Assembly (NCBI RefSeq): GCF_014279755.1
Contig: NZ_CP047951.1
Location: 2,232,001 to 2,296,000, forward strand
From: Synechococcus sp. PROS-U-1
Lineage (GTDB): Bacteria; Cyanobacteriota; Cyanobacteriia; PCC-6307; Cyanobiaceae
Direction of reading: 5' to 3'
Length of the DNA: 64,000 nt
Shown here one piece after another: positions 8,701-23,846 of the stretch (its first letter is position 1; every line of letters begins with the position of its first letter). Both the position numbers and the translations under genes were made by a program. Under the pieces are notes generated by a model, which was given only the letters and a program-made list of their open reading frames with translations, did no database searches and was not told where the DNA came from.

Positions 8701-8728
8701 AAAAAAAGCCCTCCTCAGGGGAGGGCTT
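8701..8728 (-). terminator. rho-independent terminator of porin 1
   Basis: Read on the minus strand, an 8-bp GC-rich stem (AGCCCTCC / GGAGGGCT) is followed by a run of seven T. It lies 54 bp after the stop of the porin gene at 8782 and insulates it from cysK. Confidence 0.88.
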
Positions 8729-8781: not shown

Positions 8782-10425
8782 TCAGAACTTGAAGGTGGTC
8801 TGAACCAGGCCACCGAAGACGCCGAGTGACTTGTAGTCGCCGTTGACGTTCTGGGTGTCGTTACCGTAGGGACGGCTCAGCCAGTAGATGGCTGGGGTGA
8901 TCTGGATGTTGTCGGTGACCTGGAAGCTGTACCAGAGCTCCATGGCATAACCGGCATCGGCCACGTCACCACGTTCGACTTCATAGACGAACTGGGGTTG
9001 ACCCACGGCATAACCGAGGGCGTTGCCTTCGAGGAAAACGTCGTTCCAGGTCAGACCCACCATCCAGCTGGCCATGGCCCGCTTGTTGGTGTTGTCATCC
9101 CAGTCGTCGTTGCCATTGAGGTACGACTTACCAACACCAGCGCTGATGGAAGGCATCCAACCGGAATCTTCCGGACGCCAGAAGCCATGGAAGGACCAGC
9201 TGTGGCTATCGGCGTTGCTGCGGTCGTCAGCGTCACCAACGGTGCAAGGGGTGCCGAACTTGTCGCCAACGGCGTACTCGGTACCGGTACGGAACTTGGC
9301 GCCGCACTGGCCGTAGCGGTAACCGGCGGCAAAGCCCCACTGCTTGTTGCCGTAGGCAATCTGAGTGGTGATGTTGCCTTCGGAGTTGTCGGTCATGAAG
9401 CCACCCGTGTTGGGGTTGCTGTCATTGGCCTCACCGGAATCAGCAACGTAGTTAGCAGCGACGGTGAAGTAGGGGTTGCCCTTCTCCACTTGCTTCTTGT
9501 TGCTGTAGATGGCACCGAAGCCACCACCGGTCTCCTTGTTCCAGACGCCGGGGGTGCCCAGGGAACCACCGAAGAAGTCGAGAATCTTGGTGCCACCCTT
9601 GGCATAGGCCGTGGCCTTGTAGCCCATCATCTCGGTGTTCCGGGTCAGAGGACCGACCTGAACGGTGAAGCTGTCGCCGACGGGGAAGCGGTAGTAAATA
9701 CGATCAACCTCGACGATGTTGCCGCCGGGGGCAGCGGTGTCGAGTTTGTTCAGGCTGACGCCGTTGCCATCCCACACACTGGTGTCGCCCATGTTGCCCG
9801 CGCGCAGGCGGGTGTAGAGCAGATCCTTACCGGTGAAGGAGGTCTTCAGGCCGAGACGGAGGTCGTAGCTGAAGGAGAAGCCGCCGTACTGAGCGTTGTA
9901 GGCATCACGTGCACCCTTCTCGCCACCGGTGTTGTAGTTATCACCTTTAGCGCGCGTCGCACCAGCGACCCAGACGGTTTTGGCTTTCAGCTTGGTGGTG
10001 GTGGAGAACTGGGTTGCTTCCAGTTCGCCAACACGGGCCTCGAGGCCGTCAACGCGACCCTTGAGGATGGCCAGCTCGGTTTCGAATTCCTTGAGCAGGC
10101 GACGCAGCTCGTCGGTCACTTCAGTGATCCGGTCGAGGCAGGCGTTCAGCAGGGCAGCCGCTTCGTAGCGGGTCATGGCCCGGTTGCCACGGAAGGTGCC
10201 GTTGGGGTAGCCGGCCACGCAGCCGTACTGCTCCACCAGGTTCGCCAGAGCCTGATAGGCCCAGTCGGTGGGGTAGACGTCAGAGAACTGGGTGACGCTG
10301 GTCACCTGATCAGCGGACGAGGCGTAATCAGAGACGCCGTTGATGTTGAGCTCGGCGGCATTAGCGCCACTGGCCAGAAGGCCAAGGGCAGCAGGAGCCA
10401 CCAGCAGTTGCTGGAAAAGCTTCAT
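8782..10425 (-). CDS. SLH-domain outer-membrane porin 1 (Som / iron-uptake porin family)
   Basis: A 547-residue cyanobacterial porin. Residues 1-23 are a signal peptide ending GANAA. An SLH domain (about 45-110: FSDVYPTDWAYQALANLVEQ, partly quoted, and TFRGNRAMTRYEAAALLNAC) anchors it to peptidoglycan-linked glycan. A short coiled coil (about 112-150, LLKEFETELAILKGRVDGLEA) follows, then a beta-barrel rich in aromatic and Gly residues ending in phenylalanine (TFKF), as expected for BAM-dependent insertion. ATG 10425 is preferred over the ORF start at 10464 because of the signal peptide. Substrate selectivity cannot be read. It has its own leader and terminator and is a tandem paralogue of the gene at 10647. 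Confidence 0.92.
   Translation of the reverse strand: MKLFQQLLVAPAALGLLASGANAAELNINGVSDYASSADQVTSVTQFSDVYPTDWAYQALANLVEQYGCVAGYPNGTFRGNRAMTRYEAAALLNACLDRITEVTDELRRLLKEFETELAILKGRVDGLEARVGELEATQFSTTTKLKAKTVWVAGATRAKGDNYNTGGEKGARDAYNAQYGGFSFSYDLRLGLKTSFTGKDLLYTRLRAGNMGDTSVWDGNGVSLNKLDTAAPGGNIVEVDRIYYRFPVGDSFTVQVGPLTRNTEMMGYKATAYAKGGTKILDFFGGSLGTPGVWNKETGGGFGAIYSNKKQVEKGNPYFTVAANYVADSGEANDSNPNTGGFMTDNSEGNITTQIAYGNKQWGFAAGYRYGQCGAKFRTGTEYAVGDKFGTPCTVGDADDRSNADSHSWSFHGFWRPEDSGWMPSISAGVGKSYLNGNDDWDDNTNKRAMASWMVGLTWNDVFLEGNALGYAVGQPQFVYEVERGDVADAGYAMELWYSFQVTDNIQITPAIYWLSRPYGNDTQNVNGDYKSLGVFGGLVQTTFKF
9984..10425 (-). repeat. near-identical 5' segment shared with porin 2 (copy 1)
   Basis: These 442 bp match 11705-12146 at an offset of 1721 bp with only 4 mismatches counted by eye. 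They cover the signal peptide, SLH domain and coiled coil. Identity stops abruptly at the start of the barrel. Confidence 0.93.
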
Positions 10426-10432
10426 TTGGGTT

Positions 10433-10440
10433 CTCACACC
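10433..10440 (-). promoter_or_regulatory. putative Yfr1 sRNA pairing site in the porin 1 leader
   Basis: The mRNA reads GGTGTGAG, ending 7 nt before the ATG. Seven of these bases complement CUCACAC, part of the conserved Yfr1 core ACUCCUCACAC. The site covers the ribosome-binding region. Yfr1 is known to target porin mRNAs in Prochlorococcus; its role here is inferred. Confidence 0.6.
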
Positions 10441-10567
10441 AAGAGAAAAGTGCCGGCAAGACATGCCAGCGGCCTCACGCTATGGGCCCGACTTCACCCT
10501 GGCGGTAAGCGCAACTCAAGAGTTGTTTAGGTATCGGTTAAGACCATCCAGCAACCGCGTCGCGCAC

Positions 10568-10598
10568 AAAAAAAGCCCTCCACCGAGGTGGAGAGCTG
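10568..10598 (-). terminator. rho-independent terminator of porin 2
   Basis: On the minus strand a 10-bp stem (AGCTCTCCAC / GTGGAGGGCT, one G-T pair, loop CTCGG region) is followed by seven T. It lies 49 bp after the porin 2 stop. The rest of the 221-bp gap (10426-10646) is the porin 1 leader and promoter region, with no ORF. Confidence 0.87.
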
Positions 10599-10646
10599 AA
10601 ACTTCTGAAAAGGATGAGACCCCAGAAGGGGCCTCAAAACCAGCGA

Positions 10647-12146
10647 TCAGAACTTGAACTGGGTCTTGATCAGACCGCTCATGGCGTTCATGCCATTGGA
10701 GTCCTGAGAAGGGAAGGGCTTGCTCAGGTAAGTGATGGCAGGAGTCACGCTGATGTTGTCGGTGACCTGGAACTTGTAGAAGAATTCCCAGGCATAGCCG
10801 GCGCCATCTTCGACAGCGTCGCCGTCAACGGAAGCCACGAAGGTGGGCTGACCAACGGCCATACCGAAGGAGTTGCCTTCCAGGAAGACGTCGTCCCACT
10901 CGAGGCCCACGTACCAAGACGCGGAATAGCCATCAGTGCCACTGCCATCGAACCAGGTGGTGCCGACGCCGGTGCTGATGGAAGGAATCCAGCCGGAATC
11001 CTCAGGGGTCCACCAGGCGCTCAGGCCAGCGGAGTTGGTCTGACTACCAAGCCCAGAAGCGATCACGCCCTGAGGGTTGGCGTTGCCGATGTAGAGCTTC
11101 TCGTTGTTACCGGAAGCCTTGGTGTAGCCAGCAGCAATACCCCAGTTCTCAGGTGCATAAGCGATCTGAGTGGTGGCACTGAAGTCGGCACCATCGGTAC
11201 CGATACCACCCGTGTTGGGATCGCTCGAGTTGCCGTTGGTGGAGAGGTAGCTGGTGGAGATGCTGAAGTCATCAGACTTCCAATACACACCAGCACCAGC
11301 GCCGAGGGCCAGGTTATAGACACCAGGTGCACCGGCGTAGGTGAAGAAGTCGTACGTCATTGCAGACGGATAGGCACTAGGCCACACCGGCAGCATGTCG
11401 TCCATACGAACCATCGGGCCACCAACCACGGTGAAGTTCTCACCGATGGGGAAGCTGTACCACATACGGTTGACAACCACGGCATTGCCGGAGTCGAAGC
11501 CGTACTCCTGAGAGAACAAGCCGGTGTAGACGTTGTTCATGTTGCCCGCACGCAGGCGGGTGTAGAGCAGATCCTTACCGGTGAAGCTGGTTTCCAGGTT
11601 CAGAGCCAGGTTGTAGCTGAAGGAAGTACCACCGGCTTCGGATTCAAAAGCACTGCTGCCGCGGCCGTGGGCCTTAGCTGCACCGAAGACCCAGTCGGCC
11701 TTACCTTTCAGCTTGGTGGTGGTGGAGAACTGGGTTGCTTCCAGTTCGCCAACACGGGCCTCGAGGCCGTCAACGCGACCCTTGAGGATGGCAAGCTCGG
11801 TTTCGAATTCCTTGAGCAGGCGACGCAGCTCGTCGGTCACTTCAGTGATCCGGTCGAGGCAGGCGTTCAGCAGGGCAGCCGCTTCGTAGCGGGTCATGGC
11901 CCGGTTGCCACGGAAGGTGCCGTTGGGGTAGCCGGCCACGCAGCCGTACTGCTCCACCAGGTTCGCCAGAGCCTGATAGGCCCAGTCGGTGGGGTAGACG
12001 TCGGAGAACTGGGTGACGCTGGTCACCTGATCAGCAGACGAGGCGTAATCAGAGACGCCGTTGATGTTGAGCTCGGCGGCATTAGCGCCACTGGCCAGAA
12101 GGCCAAGGGCGGCAGGAGCCACCAGCAGTTGCTGGAAAAGCTTCAT
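10647..12146 (-). CDS. SLH-domain outer-membrane porin 2
   Basis: A 499-residue paralogue of porin 1 in tandem. Signal peptide, SLH domain and coiled coil (residues 1 to about 147) are almost identical to porin 1. The beta-barrel (about 150-499) is clearly diverged in sequence and about 48 residues shorter, again ending in phenylalanine (TQFKF). This implies the same anchoring but a different pore. ATG 12146 directly starts the signal peptide. The leader contains a stronger Yfr1 complement than porin 1, and a terminator follows, so each porin is probably monocistronic. Confidence 0.93.
   Translation of the reverse strand: MKLFQQLLVAPAALGLLASGANAAELNINGVSDYASSADQVTSVTQFSDVYPTDWAYQALANLVEQYGCVAGYPNGTFRGNRAMTRYEAAALLNACLDRITEVTDELRRLLKEFETELAILKGRVDGLEARVGELEATQFSTTTKLKGKADWVFGAAKAHGRGSSAFESEAGGTSFSYNLALNLETSFTGKDLLYTRLRAGNMNNVYTGLFSQEYGFDSGNAVVVNRMWYSFPIGENFTVVGGPMVRMDDMLPVWPSAYPSAMTYDFFTYAGAPGVYNLALGAGAGVYWKSDDFSISTSYLSTNGNSSDPNTGGIGTDGADFSATTQIAYAPENWGIAAGYTKASGNNEKLYIGNANPQGVIASGLGSQTNSAGLSAWWTPEDSGWIPSISTGVGTTWFDGSGTDGYSASWYVGLEWDDVFLEGNSFGMAVGQPTFVASVDGDAVEDGAGYAWEFFYKFQVTDNISVTPAITYLSKPFPSQDSNGMNAMSGLIKTQFKF
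11705..12146 (-). repeat. near-identical 5' segment shared with porin 1 (copy 2)
   Basis: Partner of 9984-10425: 442 bp, 4 mismatches (all single-base), same offset throughout and no indels. Outside the block the leaders and barrels differ. Confidence 0.93.
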
Positions 12147-12152
12147 TTAGGT

Positions 12153-12161
12153 TCCTCACAC
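12153..12161 (-). promoter_or_regulatory. putative Yfr1 sRNA pairing site in the porin 2 leader
   Basis: The mRNA contains GTGTGAGGA, a perfect 9-nt complement of UCCUCACAC within the Yfr1 core ACUCCUCACAC. It ends 6 nt before the ATG, over the Shine-Dalgarno position (GAGGA). Pairing would block ribosome loading, as reported for Prochlorococcus porins. Confidence 0.68.
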
Positions 12162-12288
12162 AGGAAATAGGCGCAACTACGCCATTTCCAGATTTTGAGA
12201 GGTGGACATCCAATATCCAAGTGGATATGTGCCGGTCCATACATCGACATGTATCAGCGAATACCGTTTAGCTCATCGGAAGACTTCC

Positions 12289-23774: not shown

Positions 23775-23846
23775 TCCTCGGTAGCTCAGCGGTAGAGCGG
23801 TCGACTGTTAATCGATTGGTCGCAGGTTCGAATCCCGCCCGGGGAG
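23775..23846 (+). tRNA. tRNA-Asn (GTT anticodon)
   Basis: A 72-nt cloverleaf: acceptor TCCTCGG pairs with CCGGGGA (one T-G), D arm GCTC-AGCGGTA-GAGC, anticodon loop CTGTTAA with GTT, and the TTCGAAT T loop. The T stem GCAGG/CCCGC has an A-C mismatch at its middle pair (51-63). No CCA is encoded, consistent with the CCA-adding enzyme gene in this window. Confidence 0.95.

Follow-up and report, generated by a model that had tools for sequence, protein, structure and literature searches.

The question raised by this locus is whether the sequence just upstream of a porin gene in Synechococcus sp. PROS-U-1 is a target site of the trans-acting RNA Yfr1, a small regulator that occurs across the cyanobacteria, or resembles one for another reason. 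The window, i.e. the whole 64,000-nucleotide stretch of DNA analysed here, encodes two porins on the minus strand, both with Pfam OprB and SLH matches above cut-off, with the following features.

8706..8728, minus strand: terminator-like hairpin 3′ of porin 1
8782..10425, minus strand: porin 1, 547 aa, SLH plus OprB
10433..10440, minus strand: Yfr1 box of porin 1, GGTGTGAG, 8-nt complement of Yfr1 CUCACACC
10452..10470, minus strand: hairpin 5′ of the porin 1 box, 7 bp
10574..10597, minus strand: terminator-like hairpin 3′ of porin 2, with a second one at 10615-10636
10647..12146, minus strand: porin 2, 499 aa, SLH plus OprB
12153..12161, minus strand: Yfr1 box of porin 2, GTGTGAGGA, 9-nt complement of Yfr1 UCCUCACAC, includes GAGGA, kept in relatives
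12163..12189, minus strand: hairpin directly 5′ of the porin 2 box, GGAAAT-GGCG...CGCC-T-ATTTCC
12192..12197, minus strand: weak -10-like hexamer CAAAAT (4 of 6), lying 2 nt 5′ of the porin 2 hairpin

The porin boxes and Yfr1 of the same genome

The porin 2 box, GTGTGAGGA (12161..12153, minus strand), is separated from the ATG at 12146..12144 by a six-base spacer, ACCTAA, and the leader reads ...GGAAATGGCGTAGTTGCGCCTATTTCC-T-GTGTGAGGA-ACCTAA-ATG. An earlier note on this DNA had described this start region as a 9-nt complement of the Yfr1 core with a Shine-Dalgarno sequence inside it, and both observations hold: over its nine nucleotides GTGTGAGGA is exactly complementary to UCCUCACAC, part of the ACUCCUCACAC stretch in the Yfr1 that this genome encodes, and the Shine-Dalgarno-like GAGGA is seen in the box. 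The site that the note placed in the tandem pair is thus present in porin 2, with the correction that porin 1 has one as well (8 nt); its leader reads ...GCTGGCATGTCTTGCCGGC-ACTTTTCTCTT-GGTGTGAG-AACCCAA-ATG, the start being taken at 10425 by alignment with porin 2 and not at the upstream ATG at 10464. Since a terminator-like hairpin follows each porin gene, the two genes probably form two transcription units, with one leader apiece. Four porins were found in the genome, three of which have boxes (9 nt in porin 2, 8 nt in porin 1 and 9 nt in porin 3); porin 3, outside the window at C1:1476860 (L005), carries exactly the same GTGTGAGGA, again 6 nt upstream of the ATG. The leader of porin 4 (C1:1488164, minus strand) has no box and no site of 8 nt, and the box is therefore not automatically carried along with the coding sequence.

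Yfr1 itself was found as a match to RF01116 (66.2 bits, C1:1800930-1800986), near trxA and guaB as the earlier note had anticipated: the flanking ORFs are, by eye, what we take to be guaB-like and trxA-like genes, for a GuaB-like and a thioredoxin-like protein. This neighbourhood is the reported place of most Yfr1 homologues (PMC6778093). The Rfam span is predicted to fold into two hairpins that leave the intervening motif unpaired. A second ACTCCTCACAC in the genome, at C1:1057846 (L006 at 1500), is followed by a terminator-like hairpin and marks a candidate Yfr10-like RNA, and a third copy lies opposite a Yfr2 RNA, on its complementary strand. The genome has four Cyano-1 (Yfr2) matches, three at or over cut-off and one under, with longest contiguous complements to Yfr1 of 12, 7, 9 and 9 nt. 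Among other structured RNAs, a glutamine-II riboswitch (49.3 bits) lies at L048 2280-2335 (minus strand), and within the window a tRNA gene at 23775-23846 is the only match that reaches an Rfam gathering threshold.

The bare 9-mer proves nothing, because 0.57 copies are expected in the window and at least one copy arises in 45 of 100 shuffles; GTGTGAGGA has a single exact copy there. Genome-wide, it occurs 12 times against 13 for the reversed control word, with two of the 12 copies lying 6 nt upstream of porin ATGs. A looser pattern, GTGTGAG followed after 3-14 nt by ATG, has 29 occurrences against 13 for its reverse; three of these are porins, and no target was established among the remaining ones. 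The word alone could arise by chance; what counts is its placement, and its context is not a matter of chance.

Some occurrences of related words lie in other settings. One GTGTGAGGA copy, at C1:172569 (L039 around 1500), is within a long hairpin of high predicted stability (80 nt, -32.7 kcal/mol) that gave no Rfam match and is possibly a candidate RNA of a new type; the guess that it forms part of RNase P RNA was unsupported. An element with GTGTGTGAGGTTTTRTCGGGAGATGGATAGCGACAATCACAACGCCCCC is present in three near-identical copies, at C1:625621, 1590496 and 1596470 (L013, L025 and L026 around 1500), none of which matched an Rfam family.

Porin leaders were compared with those of other genes in the window plus a 400-kb sample, for which 379 genes, including porins 1 and 2, were retained by a simple gene finder based on codon usage. 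The last 30 nt of each leader were scanned for contiguous matches to Yfr1, with any start in the first 40 codons allowed, and at least 8 complementary nucleotides were found in only six of the 379, porin 2 (9) and porin 1 (8) among them. The other four (of 377) are three G runs, complementary to the C-rich Yfr1 tail, and an ORF beginning inside the Yfr2 RNA at C1:2348600 that is surely false. Matches of at least 8 nt that contain GTGTGAG are restricted, among the 379 sampled calls, to porin 2, porin 1 and this false ORF.

The claim that the pairing is better than that of other leaders stands for the contiguous match; for pairing energy the picture is less clear. When the cost of opening is included, porins 2, 1, 3 and 4 are equalled or surpassed by 7, 22, 16 and 81, respectively, of 376 other leaders. 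These are the figures relied on, obtained with genes called by codon usage; two rankings over 427 leaders called genes by longest ORF, a choice biased towards antisense ORFs, one of which overlaps porin 2. The first of these (duplex only, Yfr1 stretch UCCUCACACCCCCC) gave 14, 24, 6 and 285 of 427 for porins 2, 1, 3 and 4, and the second (a longer unpaired stretch and opening cost, the same energy as in the 376-leader ranking) gave 6, 29, 21 and 100. Energy is a weak discriminator because the C-rich Yfr1 tail pairs with G-rich leaders. Overall, the porins stand out by contiguous core match and are good, not outstanding, by energy.

Conservation of the box and of Yfr1

Porins are present in 59 of 61 family genomes (own included), and 100 porin leaders from 47 of them were read. 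At least 8 nt of Yfr1 complement, starting 8-20 nt upstream of the start, is found in 83 of the 100, and all 47 genomes except one (G025) have at least one leader with a box of at least 8 nt; many have several box-bearing porins. Permuted words scored a mean of 1.1 of 100, with a maximum of 78 that, like the maximum for the phylum set below (26 of 29), is explained by at least one permuted word per set necessarily keeping most of the real one, such words being left in the means. The 17 leaders without an 8-nt site include 7-nt matches (L138, L166), and for several of the 17 the protein match began at residue 7-9, making the choice of start uncertain. In 46 leaders, one per genome, the nine box columns carry 1.7-2.0 bits, values inflated by the picking of leaders for their box, a selection of which the count of 83 in 100 is free. 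The 39 columns upstream carry at most 1.0 bits and mostly under 0.3, the highest two forming a T-rich pair that lies 4-5 nt ahead of TGTGAG. In a separate set of 28 loci, drawn from named records of Synechococcus, Prochlorococcus and one other cyanobacterial MAG that are not all independent of the family genomes, 22 have the box; two of the six others (L310, L328) stop short of the start.

The phylum set comprised 78 genomes (own included), 37 of them with a match. Apart from the own genome this leaves 36, of which 29 supplied loci; the remainder are three genomes from an additional family and four that fall outside the class. At least 8 nt of complement lies just before the likely start in 27 of these 29 loci (all save L273 and L283) and in 13 of 15 other cyanobacterial families, against a mean of 0.6 of 29 for permuted words. 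These comparisons bear on the possibility that the match is due to chance, or to the hitch-hiking of a recently copied leader among paralogues. The expectation of 0.57 copies per window would allow for the former, and the relationship of porins 1-3, paralogues with identical N-termini, for the latter; however, the flanks diverge while the box is fixed across many genomes and families, and the comparative data contradict this explanation, to which we assign a negligible probability.

Alternatively, the porins could simply be highly expressed genes whose ribosome-binding sequence is strong and conserved, the match of the block to Yfr1 being incidental. In the family the box does have GAGGA at Shine-Dalgarno distance, and it is kept in three complete genomes without an Rfam-level Yfr1. 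Yet the conserved block extends 4 nt past what a Shine-Dalgarno sequence requires, and its GTGT half is conserved as much as GAGGA although it lies outside the Shine-Dalgarno pairing; this half presumably does not pair with the 16S tail. The distance from site to next in-frame start in the phylum loci ranges from 2 to 15 nt, and for 12 of the 27 a gap of 11-15 nt separates the end of the site from the start; in many outgroup loci the common part is GGTGTGAG followed by differing bases. The variable spacing and the differing downstream bases make the Yfr1 complement separable from the Shine-Dalgarno function. In addition, the sampled leaders of other genes do not use the box, and two porins of G025 have AAGGAG in its place. 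A mere ribosome-binding sequence is thus very improbable.

It is against this background that the site, present ahead of most of the SLH/OprB porin starts that were examined (14 families), makes the porins a strong candidate partner of the Yfr1 core. A 2007 survey of Yfr1 raised the question of what keeps the 11-nt core invariant and proposed either a conserved partner RNA, at that time unknown, or a protein (PMC2190773).

Yfr1 was detected in 46 of 60 family genomes, in 45 over cut-off (with the stricter filters for large sets), and in 28 of 33 complete ones; the five complete genomes without it were re-searched at looser settings and gave nothing over cut-off. Three complete genomes lacking a match over the Rfam cut-off nevertheless retain porin boxes, of 8 and 9 nt in G010, of 9, 7 and 9 nt in G039 and of 8 nt in G008, so the site does not strictly need Yfr1; in G013 the porin start is missing. 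In G010, G039 and G016 an inverted repeat is seen, by eye, on either side of the motif, an arrangement reported for Yfr10, and Yfr10-like RNAs with the same motif may explain the kept sites of G010 and G039, though not clearly that of G008.

A rival reading is that the site serves mainly such a Yfr10-like RNA rather than Yfr1. The motif copy with its terminator-like hairpin at C1:1057846, the flanked copies of Yfr1-negative G010 and G039, and the motif common to Yfr10 and Yfr1 in MED4 (PMC6778093) all speak for this reading. Set against it are the presence of Yfr1 in most family genomes, the use of Yfr1 in the published porin-leader reporter assay (PMC6778093), and the nature of the inverted repeats, which were read by eye and do not always give a hairpin in minimum-energy folds. 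We regard a main role for another RNA as unlikely.

G025, the family genome with no box in any of its three porin leaders, provides a natural test of the Yfr1-porin link. Its yfr1 locus persists in degraded form: a remnant of 17.9 bits at G025:C1:1079230 (L296 around 1521) retains the 11-nt motif intact with no recognisable stems, between ORFs that we assume to be guaB-like and trxA-like. The yfr1 locus and the porin boxes thus look eroded together, a single case that is suggestive only. A general loss of the box alongside loss of Yfr1 is contradicted by G008, G010 and G039; only G025 fits it.

A hairpin beside the box

Directly upstream of the box, the leaders tend to fold. The 35 nt before the porin 2 box have a predicted energy of -14.4 kcal/mol (z -4.2) and those before the porin 1 box -12.7 kcal/mol (z -2.5), and the porin 3 hairpin is weak (z -1.0). 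For 85 family leaders, including three from this genome, the stretch of 35 nt preceding the box has a mean z of -1.83 against dinucleotide shuffles, with 64% under -1.5, compared with means of -0.19 and -0.06 at two positions further upstream; the sequence of the hairpin varies among relatives (L083-L182). A phylum-wide hairpin was rejected, as the outgroup mean z is -0.18 near the box versus -0.29 further off (26 of 29 loci, with the box within the range searched). The predicted hairpin beside the box is thus specific to the family.

A consensus scan around the porin leaders found no promoter-like site. The weak hexamer CAAAAT suggests that the porin 2 transcript begins near the hairpin, and in 80 family leaders that have a hairpin -10-like hexamers are concentrated immediately upstream of the hairpin (45 at 2-7 nt, 11 at 8-13 and 4 at 14-19, a leader counting more than once in some cases, with seven more clustering at 23 nt); from this concentration the family's porin mRNA probably starts at the hairpin. 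In MED4, the mRNA of the porin PMM1121 is highly expressed and among the longest-lived, at 28.6 min by microarray, where half-lives run long for highly expressed genes, and 13.0 min by qRT-PCR (PMC2897979). By analogy, such longevity would fit a stabilising 5′ hairpin, and the hairpin adjoining the box suggests a concrete reason for a long-lived porin mRNA.

Probable antisense control of porins and comparison with known systems

Taken together, it is highly probable that GTGTGAGGA is a Yfr1 target site in the porin 2 leader that mediates antisense control, with repression as the likely outcome by analogy with published reporter assays on other cyanobacteria. The unpaired Yfr1 core ACUCCUCACAC would pair with the leader over 9 bp, covering the Shine-Dalgarno-like GAGGA and thereby blocking ribosome binding; porin 1 (8 bp) and porin 3 (9 bp) would be repressed likewise. 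Judging from relatives, Yfr2-type RNAs with the same sequence may compete for Yfr1 and relieve repression. In E. coli, Yfr1 is reported to repress PMM1121-GFP 4.7-fold and Yfr2 to restore it (PMC6778093), and the Nostoc porins alr0834 and alr4550 are repressed by Yfr1 in E. coli reporter assays (PMC6974561).

The relation could also be reversed, with abundant, long-lived porin mRNAs acting as a sponge that buffers Yfr1. The long life and high expression of PMM1121 in MED4 (PMC2897979), the multiple boxed porins in many genomes and the presence of the same sequence in Yfr2, a known Yfr1 antagonist, would agree with this. However, a cell of Synechococcus elongatus PCC 6301 reportedly contains as many as 18,000 copies of Yfr1 (PMC6974561), hardly titratable by mRNAs, and a site at the ribosome-binding region fits direct repression; we therefore consider a sponge quite unlikely and retain Yfr1 repression of the porins as the preferred reading. 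Extending this reading, we tentatively propose, as a possibility we would not bet on, that porin mRNAs of marine picocyanobacteria are long-lived reversible switches, in which a 5′-terminal hairpin would protect against decay, the invariant box would allow silencing by Yfr1 and Yfr2 would re-open the standing pool, the porin box being the ancestral target that keeps the Yfr1 core unchanged across the phylum.

Yfr1 repression of the som porins PMM1119 and PMM1121 of Prochlorococcus MED4 was reportedly described by Richter in 2010. The earlier note had treated the tandem pair as an independent case, which it is not: it belongs to the SLH/OprB porins, a kind of target already reported, and the pair in the window represents further members of a porin family whose members are published Yfr1 targets. 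It is important to point out that Yfr1 targeting of porins is already known (PMC6778093; PMC6974561). What is added here is the breadth of the site across porins and the family-specific hairpin just upstream; among the papers found by literature searches, no title or abstract opening gives an account of a site widespread on cyanobacterial porins, or of the adjoining hairpin, and no claim of priority is made.

The closest parallel is provided by the MED4 som porins (PMM1119, PMM1121; Lambrecht 2019, PMC6778093), where the Yfr1 core likewise meets a porin leader, two porins of one duplicated family are involved and Yfr2 is the antagonist. The organism differs, porin 1 has only 8 nt here, the fourth porin is boxless, and the present case is known from sequence. 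In Nostoc PCC 7120 (alr0834/alr4550), the same small RNA also has outer-membrane targets, in a distant filamentous host and as part of a wider cell-wall regulon (PMC6974561). The hairpin adjoining the box is a feature of this family; the outgroup leaders tested, taken together, gave no sign of it. Further afield, the Hfq-dependent small RNAs MicF, MicC and RybB control enterobacterial porins by pairing at or near the ribosome-binding site. The likeness lies in this mode of pairing; the RNAs are unrelated, and Yfr1, unlike them, has a fixed 11-nt unpaired core.
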